From: Solimonas flava DSM 18980
Lineage (GTDB): Bacteria > Pseudomonadota > Gammaproteobacteria > Nevskiales > Nevskiaceae
DNA: 64,000 bases
NCBI RefSeq assembly: GCF_000426685.1
Contig: NZ_AUFV01000008.1
Span: 194,530 to 258,529, forward strand
Direction of reading: 5' to 3'
Shown here: in pieces, positions 25,767-32,552 of the stretch
Numbering within the stretch: the first letter of the stretch is position 1
Layout: the number at the start of each line of letters is the position of its first letter
The notes under the pieces: generated by a model
Told to the model about the DNA's origin: nothing
Database searches by the model: none
What the model saw: the letters and a program-made list of their open reading frames with translations, nothing else
Made by a program: the position numbers and the translations under genes

Positions 25767-27419
25767 ATGAGCTTTCAGGCCGATCTCGAAAAGCTTCTCG
25801 GGCTAAAGGACGTCACGTACAAGTACGAATTGTCGAAGGCCGAGCTTTTCCACGAGGCGATCGCCAACGACCGCGGCCGCGTCCGCCGCGACGGCCCGAG
25901 CGACGAGCAGAAGGCCTATTCGACCGTGCTGGGCGTCAACGGCCCGCTGGTCTACTACACCGATCCGGACTGCACGGGCCGCCGCACCAAGGACACCTAC
26001 GCGGTGCAGTGGCCGGAAGTCGAAGGCGAGATCTGGTTCAAGGCCGACCTCAATCCGTACGACCCGCAGAAGTACGAGGGCCTGCTGCAGCGCGTCGTCG
26101 CGCATGTGAACGCGAAGAAGTCGACGCTGTACGTCAAGGACGTGTTCATGGGGTCCGATCCGGACTTCGCGGTGCCGTACCGCTTCGTCGGCGAGTACGC
26201 GACGCACGCGATGTTCGCGCACAACATGTTCCCGAAGAACCTCAAGGGCGTGAAGGACGTCGAGGCGCGCCGCTGGACCATGCTCAACGTGCCGAGCTTC
26301 ATGTGCGTGCCCGAGCGTGACGGCTGCCGCGCCGAAGCGGCGGTGGTCATCGACACCAAGAACCGCATCTGTCTCGTCGCCGGCCGCGCCGACTACTGCG
26401 GCGTCGTCAAGAAGACCATCTTCACCGTCGGCAACTACCTGCTGCCGACGCAGGGCCGCCTGTCGATGCATTGCTCGGCCAACGTCGGCGCCAAGGGCGA
26501 CGCCGCGATCCTGTTCGGCCTGTCCGGTACCGGCAAGACCACGCTGTCGGCCGACGCCTCGCGCCGCCTGATCGGCGACGACGAGACGATCTGGTCGGAC
26601 AACGGCCTGTGCAACCTCGAGGACGGCTGCTACGCCAAGCTGATCAACCTCGACAAGGACGCCGAGCCGGTCATCGCCCAGGCGCTGTCGAAGCCGGGCA
26701 CGATCATCGAGAACGTGCCGCCGCTGCCGGGCAAGCGCATGGAAGAGTGCCATCCGGACGTGCTCGACCTGTTCGACGATTCGATCGCCGAGAACACCCG
26801 CTTCTCGTACCCGCTCGAAGCGAACCCGAACGTCATGCCGAACGGCCAGGGTCCGCATCCGCAGACCATCGTGCTGCTGACCGCCGACGCCTTCGGCGTG
26901 CTGCCGCCGATCTCGATCCTCGACTCGAAGGACGTCATGTACCACTTCGTGTCGGGCTTCACCGCGCGCGTCGCCGGCACCGAAGTCGGCATCACCGAGC
27001 CGACGCCGACGTTCTCGGCCTGCTTCGGCGGTCCGTTCATGGCGCACAAGCCGAACGTCTACGCCAGGCTGCTCGCCGACAAGATGGAACACCACAAGGC
27101 GCGCTGCATCCTGCTCAACACCGGCTGGAGCGGCGGTTCGTACGGCGTCGGCAAGCGCATGTCGCTGAAGGTCACGCGGGCGCTGCTCAACGCCGCGCTC
27201 AACGGCGAGCTCGACAACGTCGAGACCGAGGAGCAGCCGATCCTCAAGCTGAAGATGCCGAAGTCCTGCCCGGGCGTCGACAGCACGATCCTGAACCCGC
27301 GCAACACCTGGGCCGACCAGGACGCCTACGACGCGACCGCGATCAAGCTGCGCGACATGTTCCGCGACAACTTCAAGAAGAAGGGCTTCGCCGCGTTCGG
27401 CATCGAAGAGCGCATCTAG
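25767..27419 (+). CDS. pckA: Phosphoenolpyruvate carboxykinase (ATP)
   Basis: 550 residues, a little longer than the common 510-540. Converts oxaloacetate and ATP to phosphoenolpyruvate for gluconeogenesis. The kinase-1a/P-loop GLSGTGKTTLS, the kinase-2 motif LIGDDETIW, the metal-site region SMHCSANVG and GWSGGSYGVGKRM are present. The set of motifs is that of the ATP-using family, not the GTP family. GAGGA lies nine bases upstream of the ATG. The 221-base gap before it holds the pilJ terminator and presumably the pckA promoter, which I could not place. The first 40 residues (QADLEKLLGLKDVTYKYELS) extend the common N-terminus slightly. Confidence 0.96.
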   Translation: MSFQADLEKLLGLKDVTYKYELSKAELFHEAIANDRGRVRRDGPSDEQKAYSTVLGVNGPLVYYTDPDCTGRRTKDTYAVQWPEVEGEIWFKADLNPYDPQKYEGLLQRVVAHVNAKKSTLYVKDVFMGSDPDFAVPYRFVGEYATHAMFAHNMFPKNLKGVKDVEARRWTMLNVPSFMCVPERDGCRAEAAVVIDTKNRICLVAGRADYCGVVKKTIFTVGNYLLPTQGRLSMHCSANVGAKGDAAILFGLSGTGKTTLSADASRRLIGDDETIWSDNGLCNLEDGCYAKLINLDKDAEPVIAQALSKPGTIIENVPPLPGKRMEECHPDVLDLFDDSIAENTRFSYPLEANPNVMPNGQGPHPQTIVLLTADAFGVLPPISILDSKDVMYHFVSGFTARVAGTEVGITEPTPTFSACFGGPFMAHKPNVYARLLADKMEHHKARCILLNTGWSGGSYGVGKRMSLKVTRALLNAALNGELDNVETEEQPILKLKMPKSCPGVDSTILNPRNTWADQDAYDATAIKLRDMFRDNFKKKGFAAFGIEERI

Positions 27420-27440
27420 CCTTTTCGCAGCAGCACCCTG

Positions 27441-27474
27441 GGGCGGCGGCCGGCGACGGTCGCCGCCCTTTTTT
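27441..27474 (+). terminator. Rho-independent terminator of pckA
   Basis: GGGCGGCG (27441-27448) pairs with CGCCGCCC (27461-27468), extended by three inner pairs, then six T residues. It starts 21 bases after the pckA stop and touches the convergent histidine kinase stop codon. Confidence 0.9.
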
Positions 27475-28850
27475 CATGCCGGCTCGACCGTCTCGACCGG
27501 CGTCGCGGCAAGGGGCAGCCGCGCCGGCAGCACGACGACCAGCGTCGCGCCGCCCGCCTCCGAGTCGCCGACCACGGCGCTGCCGCCGAGCCGCTCGGCG
27601 ATACGGCGCACGATGTAGAGCCCGAGGCCGGTGCCGGACCCTTCCTCGCCAAGCCGCACGAAGCGCTCGAACACGCGTACGCGCTGCGCCTCCGGGATGC
27701 CGCAGCCGTCGTCGGCGACCAGCAGCTGCAGGAAGCCGTCGCGCTCGCGCGCCTCGATCTTCACGCGCGTCGCGCCGCGCGCATGGCGGATTACGTTTTC
27801 GAGCAGATTGCGCAGGATCAGGTGCACCGCCTCGGGAAAGCGGGCGACGGCCTCGGGCGCAACCTCGCAGGCGATCTCGATCGGCCGCGCTTCGATCTGC
27901 GGCGCCAGATCGCGCCGCACCAGTTCGACGACTGCCGACAGCGACAGCGGCGCGCTCGGCGGCAGCGCCGCCGGCCAGGCCGAGAGGCGCGCGATCATCA
28001 GCAGTTCCTCGACCAGGCGCGCGCAGGCGGCGCTGGCCGAGACGATGCGCTGCAGCACCAGCGCCACCTCGGCGCGGGTCTCGCGGCGCAGCAGCGCCTG
28101 GGCATCGACGCGAATCGCCGACAACGGCGTGCGCAGCTCGTGCGCGGCGCTGTCGTTGAAGCGGCGCTCGTCGTCGAGCGCGGTCGCCAGACGCTGCAGC
28201 AGCACGTTGAAGGCGCCGGCCAGCGGCCGTACCTCCTCGGGCAGGCGCTCCGGCGCCAGCGGATCGAAATCGTCGGGATCGCGCCGGGCGATGCGGTCGG
28301 CCTCGCCGGCGACCTCGCGCATCGCGCGGCCGACGACCAGGCTGATGCCGGCGGCCAGCAGCGGAAACACCACGGCCGCCGGCAGCAGCAGCCACAGCGC
28401 CAGCGTGCGCGCGCCCTGCTGGTGGTTCCAGGCCGGCGCCGCGACCAGCACGCGACTGCCGTCGGCATCGGCGGCCGCGGCGTAGACGCGCAGCACGCGG
28501 TGGCCGTCGAAGCGGTTGCTGTAGCCCTGGCGCAAGGCCGCCAGCGGTTCCGGCGCCAGTCCGGCCGAACGCGCCAGCAGGCGGCCGTCCGCCGTCCAGA
28601 TCTGGAACATCAGTTCGTCCGGGCGCTCGGGCAGGCGCAGCGGCCCGCTGCCGCGCCGCTCGTCGATCAGCGCCGCGCACAGCGCCAGATCCTCGTCGAG
28701 ATCGGCGCGGCCGGCGTGGATCACGACGCCCAGGCCCAGCGCGGTGAACAGCGCCCAGAGCACGGCGATGACGATCAGGATGTCGCGCCGCAGCCGGCGG
28801 CGGATCGACAGCGGTGCCCGCCGGGAACCGATCGGCAGCGCCTCAGGCAT
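27474..28850 (-). CDS. Sensor histidine kinase, QseC/PmrB-like
   Basis: 458 residues. Two membrane helices (about 25-45 and 147-172) flank a periplasmic sensor of roughly 100 residues; a HAMP segment follows. The phospho-acceptor His237 lies in AAHELRTPLSAIR. The ATP-binding domain has the N box NLLENVIRHA, G1 DDGCGIP and G2 GSGTGLGLYIV. The first half resembles QseC/PmrB-type kinases. It overlaps the upstream response regulator gene by 8 bases, so the pair is co-translated. By analogy the stimulus could be metal or redox state, but the sensor domain gives no proof. Confidence 0.9.
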   Translation of the reverse strand: MPEALPIGSRRAPLSIRRRLRRDILIVIAVLWALFTALGLGVVIHAGRADLDEDLALCAALIDERRGSGPLRLPERPDELMFQIWTADGRLLARSAGLAPEPLAALRQGYSNRFDGHRVLRVYAAAADADGSRVLVAAPAWNHQQGARTLALWLLLPAAVVFPLLAAGISLVVGRAMREVAGEADRIARRDPDDFDPLAPERLPEEVRPLAGAFNVLLQRLATALDDERRFNDSAAHELRTPLSAIRVDAQALLRRETRAEVALVLQRIVSASAACARLVEELLMIARLSAWPAALPPSAPLSLSAVVELVRRDLAPQIEARPIEIACEVAPEAVARFPEAVHLILRNLLENVIRHARGATRVKIEARERDGFLQLLVADDGCGIPEAQRVRVFERFVRLGEEGSGTGLGLYIVRRIAERLGGSAVVGDSEAGGATLVVVLPARLPLAATPVETVEPA

Positions 28851-29514
28851 CGGCGTCGATCGTGTAGCCGAGGCCGCGCACCGTGCGTACTAGGCCGCTG
28901 CCGAGCCGGCGCCGCAGGTGGTGGATGTGGACCTCGACGGCGTTGCTCTCGACTTCCTCCCCGGCCGGATACAGCGCGTCCTCGAGCTGGCGCCGCGTCA
29001 GCACGCGGCCGCGGCAGCGGATCAGCTCGACCAGCAGCGTGTAGGCGCGCGGCGGCAGCTCGATCGAGGCATCGCCGCGCCATACGCGCCGCGCGACCGG
29101 ATCGATGCGCAGATCGCCGTGCCGCAGCTCGGCACCGCCGCGCTCGCAGCTGCGCCGCGCCGCGGCGCGCATGCGCGCCAGCAGCTCGTCGAGATCGAAG
29201 GGCTTGACCAGGTAGTCGTCGGCGCCGCGGTCGAGACCGAGCACGCGGTCGCGCACCGTGTCGCGCGCGGTGATGACGACGATGCCGGTCAGCGGATCGC
29301 GCTCGCGCAGGCGCGGAATCAGGTCCAGGCCCTCGCCGTCCGGCAGCTGGCGGTCGACCAGGACGATGCCGTACTGCGTGGTATCGGCGGCGAGCCGGGC
29401 GGCGGCCAGCCCGCGATGCCAGTCGACGACGTAGCCCTCCTGACGGAGAGCGGCGAGCAGCGACGAGCCCAGCAAGGGATCGTCTTCGACGAGCAGGACG
29501 CGCATGCCGGGCAT
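28843..29514 (-). CDS. OmpR-family response regulator, QseB/PmrA-like
   Basis: 223 residues. Receiver domain with LVEDD, phospho-acceptor Asp54 (VLVDRQLPDGEGLDLIP), VITARD and KPFDLDELLARM. A C-terminal winged helix follows, ending VEVHIHHLRRRLGSG and VRTVRGLGYTID as in PmrA, QseB and TctD. Partner of the adjacent kinase. Just 16 bases upstream of its start is a perfect CTTAAG-N5-CTTAAG direct repeat, the site type bound by PmrA/QseB regulators, so autoregulation and control of the divergent cytochrome operon are likely. An ATG three codons in is an alternative start. Confidence 0.92.
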   Translation of the reverse strand: MPGMRVLLVEDDPLLGSSLLAALRQEGYVVDWHRGLAAARLAADTTQYGIVLVDRQLPDGEGLDLIPRLRERDPLTGIVVITARDTVRDRVLGLDRGADDYLVKPFDLDELLARMRAAARRSCERGGAELRHGDLRIDPVARRVWRGDASIELPPRAYTLLVELIRCRGRVLTRRQLEDALYPAGEEVESNAVEVHIHHLRRRLGSGLVRTVRGLGYTIDADA

Positions 29515-29529
29515 TATGGCGCGGGCGGA

Positions 29530-29546
29530 CTTAAGCAGTTCTTAAG
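29530..29546. promoter_or_regulatory. PmrA/QseB-type operator, CTTAAG-N5-CTTAAG
   Basis: A perfect direct repeat of two CTTAAG half sites (29530-29535 and 29541-29546) separated by CAGTT, in the 64-base gap between the response regulator gene and the cytochrome b561 gene. The spacing of 11 bases centre to centre fits an OmpR-family dimer binding in tandem and matches the published PmrA box pattern YTTAAK-N5-YTTAAK. The nearest half sites are 16 bases from the regulator start and 33 from the b561 start, so it could control both directions. Confidence 0.75.
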
Positions 29547-29578
29547 ATCGCCGCCCTACGGTTGCCGCACTCTCCCTC

Positions 29579-30124
29579 GTGAGCGCTCGCGTGCCGTCCC
29601 GACATCCTCGCCCCCTGATCTGGCTCCACTGGCTGACCCTGCTGCTGGTGCTCGCCGCCGTGGTCGTCGCCCTGAGCCGCGAGTGGATCGACAGCCGCGA
29701 TCTGCGCGCGCTGCTGCTCGACGCGCATCGGCAGATCGGCCTCGTGGTGTTCGGGCTGACGCTGGTCCGGCTGTTCTGGCGCGGCCGCGGCGAGCACGCG
29801 TTCGCAACCGATGCCGACGGCGTCCACCGCTGGCTGGTGCGCGGCTCGCACGCCTCGTTCTATCTGCTGCTCGCCACGCTGCCGGTGCTCGGCCTGCTCG
29901 CCTCGCAGGCGCGCGGCCAGGCCGTGCACCTGCTCGGCCTGCCGCTGCCGACGCTGCTGGCGCGCAACCGCGATCTCGCCGAGCAGATCACCGAAATCCA
30001 CGAGTGGAGCGCCTGGAGCCTGCTGGCGCTCGCCGCCGGCCACGCCGCCGCCGCGCTCTGGCACCACTACATCCGCGGCGACGACACCCTGCGTCGCATG
30101 CTGCCGTCGCTGCGAATCCGCTGA
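29579..30124 (+). CDS. Cytochrome b561 family membrane protein
   Basis: 181 residues with four membrane helices and conserved histidines in HWLTLLLVLAAV, LLDAHRQIG, RGSHASFYLLL and TEIHEWSAW, the pattern of the dihaem b-type YodB/CybB family (PF01292). Such proteins pass electrons between the quinone pool and periplasmic or membrane partners. The GTG at 29579 gives the first family-like residues; another GTG four codons later is possible. It is first in an operon with a haem-bearing porin and a cytochrome c, and lies opposite a two-component system with a shared operator, which together suggest an inducible electron-transfer route. Confidence 0.88.
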   Translation: MSARVPSRHPRPLIWLHWLTLLLVLAAVVVALSREWIDSRDLRALLLDAHRQIGLVVFGLTLVRLFWRGRGEHAFATDADGVHRWLVRGSHASFYLLLATLPVLGLLASQARGQAVHLLGLPLPTLLARNRDLAEQITEIHEWSAWSLLALAAGHAAAALWHHYIRGDDTLRRMLPSLRIR

Positions 30125-30146
30125 ACGACCCCACAGGAGAGTCCGC

Positions 30147-31481
30147 ATGTCGCTGTCCGCTGTTCGCGCTTCCACGCTGCTCCGAGGCCTGCTCGCCGGC
30201 CTCGGTCTGCTGCTCGCCGGCCAGGCCCAGGCCCTGCCTGCCTATGCCCGCCAGACCGGCCAGGATTGCGGCGCCTGTCACGTCGGCGCCTTCGGTCCGC
30301 AGCTGACGCCGTACGGCCAGCGCTTCAAGCTGGGCGGCTACAGCGACGGCGACGCCCGTACTGTGCCGCTGTCGGCGATGTTCGTCGGCACCTTCACGCA
30401 CACCCAGCAGAACCTCGACGAGGCGCCGGCCCGGCATTACGACAGCAACGACAACTTCGCCGCGCAGGAAGCCTCGGTGTTCCTCGCCGGCCGCCTCGCC
30501 GACCACCTCGGCAGCTTCACGCAGGTCACGTACTCGGGCATCGACCGCAAGTGGGCCTGGGACAATCTCGACATCCGCTACGCGCGCGACCTCACCGCCT
30601 ACGGCAAGGATCTGACCGTCGGCGTGTCGCTGAACAACAATCCGGGCATTACCGATCCCTGGAACACACTGCCGGCCTGGGGCTTCCCGTACGTCGGCTC
30701 CGAACTCGCGCCGGAAGCGCCGGCCGCGCCGCTGCTCGCCGGCGGCCTCGAAACGCAGGTGCTCGGCCTCAATGCCTACGCCCTGCTCGACCAGCGCTGG
30801 TACGCCGAACTCGGCGCCTACCGCTCGCCCGGCCACTCGCTGCTCGACAGCCTCGGCGTGCCCAAGGACGATCTGGTGCGCACCGCCGGCCTGACTCCAT
30901 ACCTGCGCCTGGCCTACACGCGCGATCTGCATCGCCAGAACTACTCGGTCGGCCTGGTCGGCATGAGCTCCGACATCTCGCAGCCCGGCACCTCGGCGCA
31001 CGACCGCTACGACGACATCGGCATCGACGGCTCGTACCAGTTCCTCGGCACGCGCCGCGACATCTTCACCGTCAACGGCCTCGCCGTGCGCGAGAAGCAG
31101 ACGCTGTCGGCCAGCCTCGACACCGGCGACGCCGGCAAGAAGAGCCAGAACCTGACGAGCTACAGCCTCAACGCCTCGTACTACCGCGACCAGACCTACG
31201 GCGCGACGCTCGGCTACTTCGCCACCGACGGCAGCCGCGACACGACGCTGTACGGCGACAGCGCCGCCGGCCGCCCGAACACGCGCGGCGAGATCCTGCA
31301 GCTCGACTACACGCCGCTCGGCAAGGAGAACTCGTGGCTGGCGCCGAACCTCAACCTGCGCCTCGGCCTGCAGTACACGCTGTACAACCGCTATGACGGC
31401 AAGAGCAGCAATTACGACGGTGCCGGCCGCAGCGCGTCCGACAACAACACCCTGATGGCCTTCCTGTGGATGAGCTTCTGA
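30147..31481 (+). CDS. Outer-membrane beta-barrel with N-terminal c-type haem site (Cyc2-like cytochrome-porin)
   Basis: 444 residues. Signal peptide ends near Ala29 (GQAQA). Immediately after comes YARQTGQDC41GAC44H45VGAFGPQ, a single CxxCH haem-binding motif, then LTPYGQRFKLGGY. The remaining 380 residues alternate polar and hydrophobic residues in strand-like stretches (YAELGAYRS, YSLNASYYRD, LRLGLQYTLYNRY) and end in Phe (LMAFLWMSF), the signature of an outer-membrane barrel. The layout of one haem plus a barrel, and the ARQTG..C..CH..P.L..(Y/F)G..FK..GY pattern, recall Cyc2 iron oxidases; true function is untested. CAGGAGA precedes the ATG. Its stop overlaps the start of a soluble cytochrome c gene (TGATG). 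Confidence 0.8.
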   Translation: MSLSAVRASTLLRGLLAGLGLLLAGQAQALPAYARQTGQDCGACHVGAFGPQLTPYGQRFKLGGYSDGDARTVPLSAMFVGTFTHTQQNLDEAPARHYDSNDNFAAQEASVFLAGRLADHLGSFTQVTYSGIDRKWAWDNLDIRYARDLTAYGKDLTVGVSLNNNPGITDPWNTLPAWGFPYVGSELAPEAPAAPLLAGGLETQVLGLNAYALLDQRWYAELGAYRSPGHSLLDSLGVPKDDLVRTAGLTPYLRLAYTRDLHRQNYSVGLVGMSSDISQPGTSAHDRYDDIGIDGSYQFLGTRRDIFTVNGLAVREKQTLSASLDTGDAGKKSQNLTSYSLNASYYRDQTYGATLGYFATDGSRDTTLYGDSAAGRPNTRGEILQLDYTPLGKENSWLAPNLNLRLGLQYTLYNRYDGKSSNYDGAGRSASDNNTLMAFLWMSF

Positions 31482-31855
31482 TGCGTACCACCGGTTTCCT
31501 CGCCGCGGCGATCCTGCTCGCCGCGGCGGGCAGCGGCCCGGCCCGCGCCGACGTCAATCGCGGCGCCGATCTCTACGACGAGAACTGCGCCGATTGCCAC
31601 AGCCTCGCCAAGCCGCTGAAGAACAAGAAGGGCCCGGGTCTGGTCGGCGTCGTCGGCCGCACCGCGGCCAGCGTGCCGGACTTCAACTACTCGGACGCGC
31701 TGCGCGCCGCGAAGCTGGCCTGGACGCCGGATCAGCTCGACGCCTACCTGCGCGCGCCGAAGACGCTCGTGCCCGGCGGCAAGATGAAGTTCGACGGCAT
31801 GGACAAGGCCGACGAGCGTCGCGACCTGATCGAGTTCCTCGCCACACAACGCTGA
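31481..31855 (+). CDS. Soluble periplasmic class I cytochrome c
   Basis: 124 residues. Signal peptide to about Ala23, then a class I cytochrome c with C36ADC39H40 haem attachment and axial Met102 in GGKMKF. The tail LIEFLATQR is the usual last helix. The region FNYSDALRAAKLAWTPDQLDAYL is typical of mitochondrial-type cytochrome c550. It overlaps the preceding porin-cytochrome gene and is third in the b561-porin-c operon. A natural role is carrying electrons between the outer-membrane haem protein and membrane partners. An ATG five codons upstream is possible but lies inside the porin coding end. Confidence 0.92.
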   Translation: MRTTGFLAAAILLAAAGSGPARADVNRGADLYDENCADCHSLAKPLKNKKGPGLVGVVGRTAASVPDFNYSDALRAAKLAWTPDQLDAYLRAPKTLVPGGKMKFDGMDKADERRDLIEFLATQR

Positions 31856-31868
31856 AAAAAAACCGTAT

Positions 31869-31900
31869 CGTCCCCGCCCGCCAGCGCACGGGCGGGGACG
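31869..31900. terminator. Perfect 12-bp inverted repeat after the cytochrome operon
   Basis: CGTCCCCGCCCG (31869-31880) and CGGGCGGGGACG (31889-31900) are exact complements around an 8-base loop. There is no T tract downstream on the plus strand. Eight A residues at 31855-31862 would form a spaced U run on the minus strand. Probably a transcript 3' hairpin. Confidence 0.5.
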
Positions 31901-31907
31901 CTTGCGG

Positions 31908-31913
31908 TATCGT
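31908..31913 (+). promoter_or_regulatory. -10-like box TATCGT nine bases before FAH-family gene
   Basis: TATCGT ends nine bases before the ATG at 31923, with TGGCGGGCC between. That GGCGG run is a poor ribosome site, so a leaderless or very short leader is likely. No clear -35 because the hairpin occupies the space. Confidence 0.3.
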
Positions 31914-31922
31914 TGGCGGGCC

Positions 31923-32552
31923 ATGAATCCCGTCAATCGCATCTTCTGCATCGGCAAAAACTACGCTGAGCACATCACCGAGCTCGCCCATCTCGGCCAC
32001 GCGCCGGATGGCGAGTGCGTGATCTTCATGAAGCCGGTTTCGGCGCTGGTCGAGGAAGGTACGCCGATCACGCTGCCGAAGGGCCACGGCGCGATCCACC
32101 ACGAGGCCGAACTGGTCGTGCAGCTGACCGGCGGCGGCCGCGACATCCCGCTCGCCGAAGCCCTCGACTGCGTCGCCGGCATCACGCTCGGCCTCGACCT
32201 GACGCTGCGTGATCTGCAGACCGAGCTGAAGAACAAGGGCAAGCCCTGGGAGCTGGCCAAGGCCTTCGACGGCGCGGCGCCGCTCGGCGACGTGCAGCCG
32301 TACCTGAACCAGGATCTGCAGAAGCTCGAATTCACCTGCCACGTCAACGGTAAGCTGCGCCAGCACGGCAAGACCGCGGAAATGCTCTACCCGGTCGCGC
32401 AGCAGATTCACATCCTCTCGCAGACCTGGGCGCTCGAACCGGGCGACCTGATCTACACCGGCACACCCAAGGGCGTCGGACCGCTCGAAGCGGGTGACGA
32501 GATCGTGCTCGAGAGCCGCGGCATCGGCCGCTTCGCCTGGAGATGCGTCTGA
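31923..32552 (+). CDS. Fumarylacetoacetate hydrolase-family protein
   Basis: 209 residues, the compact FAH fold (YcgM/FAHD1 type). Metal ligands are visible in HHEAELVVQ (the E-x-E pair) and GLDLTLRDLQ (Asp). FCIGKNYAEHITEL and YTGTPKGVGPLEAGD are the other signatures. Members cleave carbon-carbon bonds in acylpyruvates, or decarboxylate oxaloacetate as human FAHD1 does. The neighbouring pckA makes oxaloacetate relevant, but the link is speculative. Cytoplasmic, no signal peptide. Its stop TGA shares bases with the DUF502 start (TGATG). Confidence 0.9.
   Translation: MNPVNRIFCIGKNYAEHITELAHLGHAPDGECVIFMKPVSALVEEGTPITLPKGHGAIHHEAELVVQLTGGGRDIPLAEALDCVAGITLGLDLTLRDLQTELKNKGKPWELAKAFDGAAPLGDVQPYLNQDLQKLEFTCHVNGKLRQHGKTAEMLYPVAQQIHILSQTWALEPGDLIYTGTPKGVGPLEAGDEIVLESRGIGRFAWRCV

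Follow-up and report, generated by a model that had tools for sequence, protein, structure and literature searches.

A Cyc2-like cytochrome-porin operon beside a two-component regulatory pair in Solimonas flava, a possible inducible outer-membrane electron conduit

We analysed a 64,000-nucleotide stretch of the genome of Solimonas flava DSM 18980 (hereafter the window; assembly GCF_000426685.1, contig NZ_AUFV01000008.1, positions 194,530 to 258,529 of the forward strand), in which an operon for a cytochrome b561, an outer-membrane barrel with one CXXCH haem motif and a soluble cytochrome c lies divergent from a sensor-regulator pair. Judged by its sequence, the barrel is a Cyc2-like fused cytochrome-porin belonging to a variant branch and is not Cyc2 proper. 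On balance we lean towards the view that these genes make up a portable, two-component-controlled module for an outer-membrane electron conduit, whose most likely role is an inducible electron-uptake route into cytochrome c oxidases; Fe(II) is a credible substrate for it, although we would not count on that identity. A sequence-only reading of the window had pointed out the operon, its tight gene packing and a CTTAAG-N5-CTTAAG repeat between it and the regulator gene, and had proposed a regulated path for electrons across the outer membrane, pointing to Cyc2 iron oxidases and to metal sensing by PmrAB-type systems. The observation itself was confirmed, with the repeat at 29530-29546, PF01292, CGACH and PF00034 in the three operon products, and the packing evident from the gene coordinates; the interpretation as a whole is partly supported. 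The features of the locus are as follows.

27420..31922: extent of the cassette, from the PEPCK gene (PF01293, ends at 27419) to the FAA-hydrolase-family gene (PF01557, ATG at 31923)
27474..28850, minus strand: sensor histidine kinase, QseC-like (Pfam HATPase_c 2.5e-24, HisKA 1.3e-11)
28843..29514, minus strand: OmpR-family response regulator, PmrA/QseB-like (PF00072, PF00486)
29530..29546, no strand: candidate regulator box CTTAAG-N5-CTTAAG, CTTAAGCAGTTCTTAAG (exact sequence match)
29557..29562, plus strand: putative -10 element TACGGT, 10 bases past the second half-site (by eye)
29579..30124, plus strand: cytochrome b561 of predicted CybB (superoxide-oxidase) type, GTG start (PF01292, E 8.7e-28)
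30147..31481, plus strand: predicted Cyc2-like fused cytochrome-porin, 444 aa (homology, AlphaFold model)
30267..30281, plus strand: predicted haem-binding CGACH (CXXCH), barrel residues 41-45 (read from sequence)
31481..31855, plus strand: predicted periplasmic class I mono-haem cytochrome c, mitochondrial c/c2 type (PF00034, E 6.1e-8)
31869..31900, plus strand: 12-bp perfect hairpin past the operon, a possible terminator without a T-run (by eye)

The b561 and barrel genes are separated by 22 bases (30125-30146), the barrel and cytochrome c genes overlap in TGATG, and the box lies between the start of the regulator gene (29514, minus strand) and the GTG of b561 (29579).

The barrel and its relation to Cyc2

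Published systems are cited throughout from portions of the papers named. Cyc2 is defined in PMC8406198 by a signal peptide, one CXXCH with AXPXFAR[Q/K][T/Y] upstream and PXL four residues downstream, and a 16-strand porin, with a length screen of 365 residues. The barrel, present as one copy in the Solimonas genome, resembles the Cyc2 proteins of Mariprofundus PV-1 and Acidithiobacillus ferrooxidans (PMC8406198, PMC7029218) in its signal peptide and in its single N-terminal CXXCH within A-x-P-x-[FY]-A-R-Q-T. The signal peptide comprises residues 1-29 and the mature protein begins with LPAYARQTGQDCGACHVGAFGPQLTPYGQRFKLGGY, the cleavage site having been placed by eye; the CXXCH is CGACH at residues 41-45, and the protein is 444 residues long. 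It differs from the published form at two points, as the upstream motif reads ALPAYARQT, with Y33 for F, and PQL follows CXXCH at five, not four, residues, and for this reason we filed it as a variant branch. The upstream motif is not a sharp test, since a Cyc2 from a rus-type operon (L113) fails it too (PAFARQL). Among 69 homologue rows, 36 keep the strict PXFAR[QK][TY], including the nearest relative, L003; the F position holds F in 51, Y in 16 and M in two, and the R position holds R in 58, K in four, A in three, Q in two, and M and V in one each. All 11 rows in which the arginine is replaced by K, Q, A, M or V (L079, L080-L083, L118, L120, L122, L126, L147 and L148) fall in or near a GPQL-type branch, and loss of this arginine may be relevant to the haem environment.

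Curated family models recovered nothing for the barrel above cut-off: there was no Pfam match at E<=1, the sole NCBIfam match was far under its threshold (E 0.11, 11.3 bits vs 60), and PDB sequence searches with either the barrel or a barrel profile as query returned nothing meaningful. A profile comparison did bear out the Cyc2 likeness proposed in the sequence-only reading, as hhalign matched a 12-member profile of the window's clade to 11 Cluster-1-like Cyc2s at 99.1% (E 8e-19, 274 columns). The barrel also matched the L113 Cyc2-like protein over its full length (31% identity, E 2e-62). Together with the haem region, these two comparisons support Cyc2-type ancestry. The reference L113 was identified by its motif and gene neighbours; a rusticyanin match (137 bits vs a cut-off of 146.7) lies some 7 kb further down the same strand of its genome, with CoxA-like and CtaA-like frames, recognised by eye, in between, and the locus would thus be a rus-type operon as in PMC10654088. 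In genome G264, with three rusticyanin matches, no Cyc2-like ORF was found in the stretches around two of the three.

In a 69-row tree the window barrel falls among 60 rows that include L113, apart from nine Cluster-1-like rows (100/100); the label 'Cluster-1-like' (Zetaproteobacteria-like and others) is our assignment from motif and kinship. Rows dropped before a first tree were mostly near-duplicates (L002, L075, L076, L106, L063, L066, L068, L069, L074 and L123); before the second, L161, L160, L132, L065, L131 and L045 were dropped and ten barrels missed by the motif filter were added. Identity to the window barrel is 98% in S. variicoloris DSM 15731, 67% in Sinimarinibacterium sp. CAU 1509 and 63% in S. 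aquatica.

The AlphaFold model of the barrel (pLDDT 90.6) has 16 predicted strands and a helical N-terminus bearing the CXXCH, the architecture that the sequence-only reading had anticipated, and the modelled barrel follows the general 16-strand porin fold. Conservation is concentrated at the N-terminus: an alignment of 46 full-length homologues has 22 invariant columns, and residues 29-61 hold 11 of them (A29, P31, R35, Q36, C41, C44, H45, L53, G57, F60 and K61). Invariance of P31, R35 and CXXCH is partly by construction, as rows were selected with a motif filter, and that of A29, Q36, L53, G57, F60 and K61 is not; the alignment leaves out ten barrels that failed the first filter (without R35 or the preceding A). 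CXXCH is also present in the ten relatives recovered without the filter.

At E<=1e-5 the barrel had matches in 14 of 58 family genomes, 48 of 369 from the class and 70 of 398 in the phylum draw, many of the weaker ones spanning the haem-bearing N-terminus only. Profile searches for partner genes at 62 barrel loci found a homologous cytochrome c no more than 1 kb downstream of the barrel and on its strand at 22 (one of these, L129, resting on the second of two barrel matches), a b561 on the same strand within 1 kb at 11, and a divergent regulator plus kinase at nine; the 62 are not all independent, as the window hardly differs from L002, nor do L080-L082 from one another, and L113 overlaps L153. 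Every one of the 12 rows in the window's clade of the tree has the cytochrome c. The gene linkage thus recurs elsewhere and does so in two orders, b561-barrel-cytochrome c (the window, L002-L004, L077, L092 and L119) and barrel-cytochrome c-b561 (L080-L083, also with a divergent two-component system, TCS), and this recurrence of the same parts in re-shuffled order argues for joint function. L077 and L092 have no TCS nearby. At L115, L116, L128 and L129 a response regulator and kinase occur within 3.5 kb of a Cyc2-like gene in other arrangements.

Regulator, sensor and box

The sequence-only reading had described a QseB-like regulator within a QseBC/PmrAB-like system. An OmpR-type regulator and a HisKA kinase are indeed present, and their scores lie below the curated cut-offs: the regulator reached 203.6 bits against PmrA (cut-off 330) and 193.3 against QseB (cut-off 345), and the kinase, whose best NCBIfam match was QseC (150 bits, cut-off 475), reached 133 against PmrB, also below cut-off. 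The regulator is 66% and 64% identical to those of L003 and L004. In the kinase, HAMP and 2CSK_N matches were under the Pfam cut-offs, and the periplasmic part, weakly 2CSK_N-like, is poorly conserved among homologues. An ExxE motif in the periplasmic part of PmrB is tied to metal sensing. A DxxE there is likewise tied to metal sensing in PmrB/PreB (PMC2653508); the kinase has one DLDE, from residue 50, and the aligned stretch of L003 reads DIDQ. Metal sensing by analogy with PmrAB is therefore unsupported, given a kinase nearer to QseC than to PmrB and so variable a periplasmic part.

The PmrA box consists of two CTTAAT/CTTAAG-like half-sites with 5 bp spacing (PMC3973317), a form that the sequence at 29530-29546 matches exactly. 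At zero or one mismatch the box occurs at a single place in the whole genome (4,460,203 bases), and a reversed control pattern gave two; this uniqueness and the fit to the published form support a PmrA-type box. At up to two mismatches it is unremarkable at window scale, with at least one occurrence in 21 of 100 shuffles. The degenerate pattern YTTAAK-N5-YTTAAK found one further genomic site (C1:361309-361325, L136:1501-1517; CTTAATACGAATTTAAG), so a wider regulon was rejected; by eye, this second PmrA-like box stands upstream of a secreted-looking protein. The box is exact in S. variicoloris (L002) and 17/17 identical in Sinimarinibacterium (L003 and L075, which are the same place), where the flanking bases differ. 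At the corresponding position S. aquatica, which carries the module, has GATAAG-N5-CCTAAG, with three mismatches by eye, and the scan at up to two mismatches found no box there; the same holds for L119 and L080-L083, where a TCS is present. A CGAAAG-N5-CGTAAG repeat was noticed by eye upstream of the L080-L083 operons; as a regulator site it is only suggestive, because by our estimate some 100 bases would not uncommonly contain so good a hexamer repeat by chance.

A putative -10 element follows the second half-site by 10-11 bases, by eye, in the window (TACGGT), L002 (TAGCGT), L003 (TAGATT) and L004 (TAGCGT). CTTAAG is palindromic, so that the orientation of the box cannot be read from its sequence, and the box may serve both divergent promoters. 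The arrangement resembles QseBC/PreAB and PmrAB of enterobacteria (PMC2653508, PMC3973317) in its OmpR-type regulator and tandem half-sites with a 5-bp spacer; it differs in scoring below equivalog cut-offs, in having a single box in the Solimonas genome and in its target, an outer-membrane cytochrome conduit. A precedent for a regulator of this class acting on b561 comes from Salmonella, where the b561 gene STM1253, already known to be regulated by PmrA, is activated by the QseB orthologue PreA (PMC2653508).

Electron flow and competing explanations

In the mechanism that we favour, the N-terminal haem would receive single electrons from a small reductant (Fe2+ is the most plausible) lying in the barrel or outside it, and the class I cytochrome c would take them on in the periplasm to a cbb3 or aa3 cytochrome c oxidase; the genome encodes both (CcoN 743 bits, CtaD 686 bits). 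The inner-membrane b561 would link ubiquinone to the periplasm, exchanging electrons there with either cytochrome c or the superoxide that arises when Fe(II) reacts with O2. The divergent pair would turn on the operon, and probably its own genes too, through the single PmrA-type box, which would stand at the expected -35 position of the b561 promoter. Haem loading, partner order, electron direction, substrate and signal are all inferred in this scheme. The cytochrome c had its best PDB matches among class I cytochromes c of the mitochondrial/c2 type (E 1e-21), and scored 76 bits against NCBIfam c-550 CycA (cut-off 240). Cytochromes of this class usually donate to cytochrome c oxidases.

Two published systems offer parallels. 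The Acidithiobacillus rus operon and RegB/RegA (PMC10654088, PMC5506826) likewise pair a Cyc2-type protein and a cytochrome c with a two-component regulator, RegB/RegA binding the Fe(II)-oxidation genes (PMC5506826), but have an aa3 oxidase, rusticyanin and a global regulator where Solimonas has a b561 and a local one. In a member of the Gallionellaceae from culture KS (PMC5566968) an outer-membrane conduit and a small periplasmic cytochrome c are accompanied by a b561-type inner-membrane partner hypothesised to be quinone-active; there, however, the conduit is a multihaem MtoA/MtoB and the b561 is fused to a dihaem c, unlike the fused mono-haem barrel seen here.

Several results weigh against the favoured mechanism. 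Besides the two departures from the Cyc2 motif, the variable periplasmic part of the kinase and the mismatched or missing boxes described above, RuBisCO was not found in the genome and our searches of the open-licence PMC literature turned up no report of iron oxidation by Solimonas; the one paper that mentions both Solimonas and iron-oxidizing organisms is, to judge by its title, about methanotrophs. Without RuBisCO, Calvin-cycle lithoautotrophic iron oxidation is unlikely, and any gain would be supplementary energy or protection; this and the private PmrA/QseB-like TCS and operon b561 set the host apart from the Cyc2 systems of Mariprofundus PV-1 and A. ferrooxidans. The E. coli b561 haems have potentials of -8/+100 mV with quinone, and ubiquinone of +90 mV (PMC11869295), below the +208 mV of Cyc2 PV-1 (PMC8406198), so that flow from barrel to quinone through b561 would not be downhill.

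Because b561 would be a poor acceptor for barrel electrons, the opposite direction stays alive as an explanation, though an unlikely one: ubiquinol would reduce b561, and electrons would pass through cytochrome c and the barrel haem to an extracellular acceptor such as Fe(III) chelates, Mn oxides or quinones. The published potentials run downhill in this sense, the b561 retains quinone-site residues H87, H151, H158 and D164, and an oxidase-only route has no need of the b561 in the operon. Yet Fe(II) is oxidised by all three of the Cyc2 proteins that have been characterised (PMC8406198), no b561 was found within 3.5 kb at 51 of the 62 barrel loci (some of which stop at contig ends), and the cytochrome c is of the class noted above as an oxidase donor.

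We also considered envelope protection, in which the barrel haem would oxidise stray surface Fe(II), the b561 would be a superoxide oxidase and the TCS would answer envelope redox stress with no energy gain; this we regard as improbable. In its favour is the b561, which matches E. coli CybB (5oc0) at E 4.3e-16. The window b561 has the CybB residues H13, H45, H137, H151, H87, H158, D164, R63, R30, R35, R38 and R108. The first three, H13, H45 and H137, we take to be haem ligands. CybB is a superoxide oxidase (PMC11869295), and the window b561 shares its histidines, its quinone-site residues and four of the five cationic residues of its superoxide site (R30, R35, R38 and R108), differing in K134, replaced by T, and in its operon with a cytochrome-porin and a cytochrome c. 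This is more than the two aligned paralogues have, of four in the genome (L166 and L169 were left out), both of which carry M at R30. Protection is also favoured by the genome's lack of RuBisCO, by b561 genes linked to a secreted partner with a published anti-lipid-peroxidation role (PMC9113575) and by the fact that polymyxin resistance requires PmrAB (PMC2653508). Among nine operon b561s including the window's, however, R30 is kept in seven and R38 is R or K in all nine, but R35, R108 and K134 vary, and superoxide oxidation by the window b561 is therefore a lead, not a result; L092 has A at the H13 position. Detoxification, moreover, seems to call for less than a dedicated conduit in the outer membrane and a cytochrome c to go with it.

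It is very improbable that the barrel is no more than a substrate porin belonging to a respiratory operon, with a haem that is vestigial or has a structural role. The modelled fold does match general porins and a single haem could hardly span the membrane, but half of the invariant columns, six of them outside the motif filter, lie around the haem motif and the cytochrome c is linked at 22 of 62 loci.

A variable cassette within the genus

Of 11 genomes from the genus, only four have the barrel. Among the seven that lack it, five (L183-L186 and L188) have the PEPCK and FAA-hydrolase-family genes, which flank the module in the window, directly next to each other, and the remaining two (L182 and L187) have different inserts in the interval, which thus appears to vary within the genus. 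The insert at L182:1975-4560 encodes a protein of 594 aa that combines a guanylate/adenylate cyclase domain with Trans_reg_C, and that at L187:1487-9157 includes a region for an NADHdh-family (hydrogenase-like) subunit. In Sinimarinibacterium (L075) the module occupies the same position as in the window. In S. aquatica (L076, L189) the module and the FAA-hydrolase gene are on different contigs, and no PEPCK gene was found beside the latter within the 11 kb fetched. This pattern suggests that the five genes, the sensor and regulator genes as well as the operon, are gained and lost jointly as a cassette.

Cyc2 homologues in organisms not known as iron oxidisers (PMC7029218, PMC8406198) and genes for Fe(II) oxidation controlled by a global TCS (PMC5506826) are already on record. 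Within the portions of open-licence PMC literature covered, we found no description of an operon joining a cytochrome-porin and a b561, nor any link between cyc2 and Solimonas. We tentatively suggest that extracellular electron uptake could be an optional, horizontally portable, signal-gated accessory trait of heterotrophs, carried as a cassette with its own sensor, box, conduit and cytochrome c, in which b561 would recover superoxide from Fe(II)/O2 chemistry and the host's oxidases would be used. Many Cyc2 homologues belong to organisms that are not known to oxidise iron; a genetic test of their role has been called for, something that has proved hard in iron oxidisers (PMC8406198). As a heterotroph with one barrel copy, a private regulator, a single genomic box and cassette-free sister species, Solimonas would lend itself to clean gene deletion, induction and transfer of the cassette, and could reveal which of energy gain, electron export and protection is the role of the widespread Cyc2-like proteins.

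Cyc2-like genes were also met in other settings. Some genomes have two or three different ones, as seen in G385 (L097, L100 and L105) and G213 (two copies, L112), and an Acidithiobacillus ferrooxidans plasmid (CP084173.1; L147:4890-6257) carries one with FAAQTG for FARQTG and a c-type cytochrome downstream.

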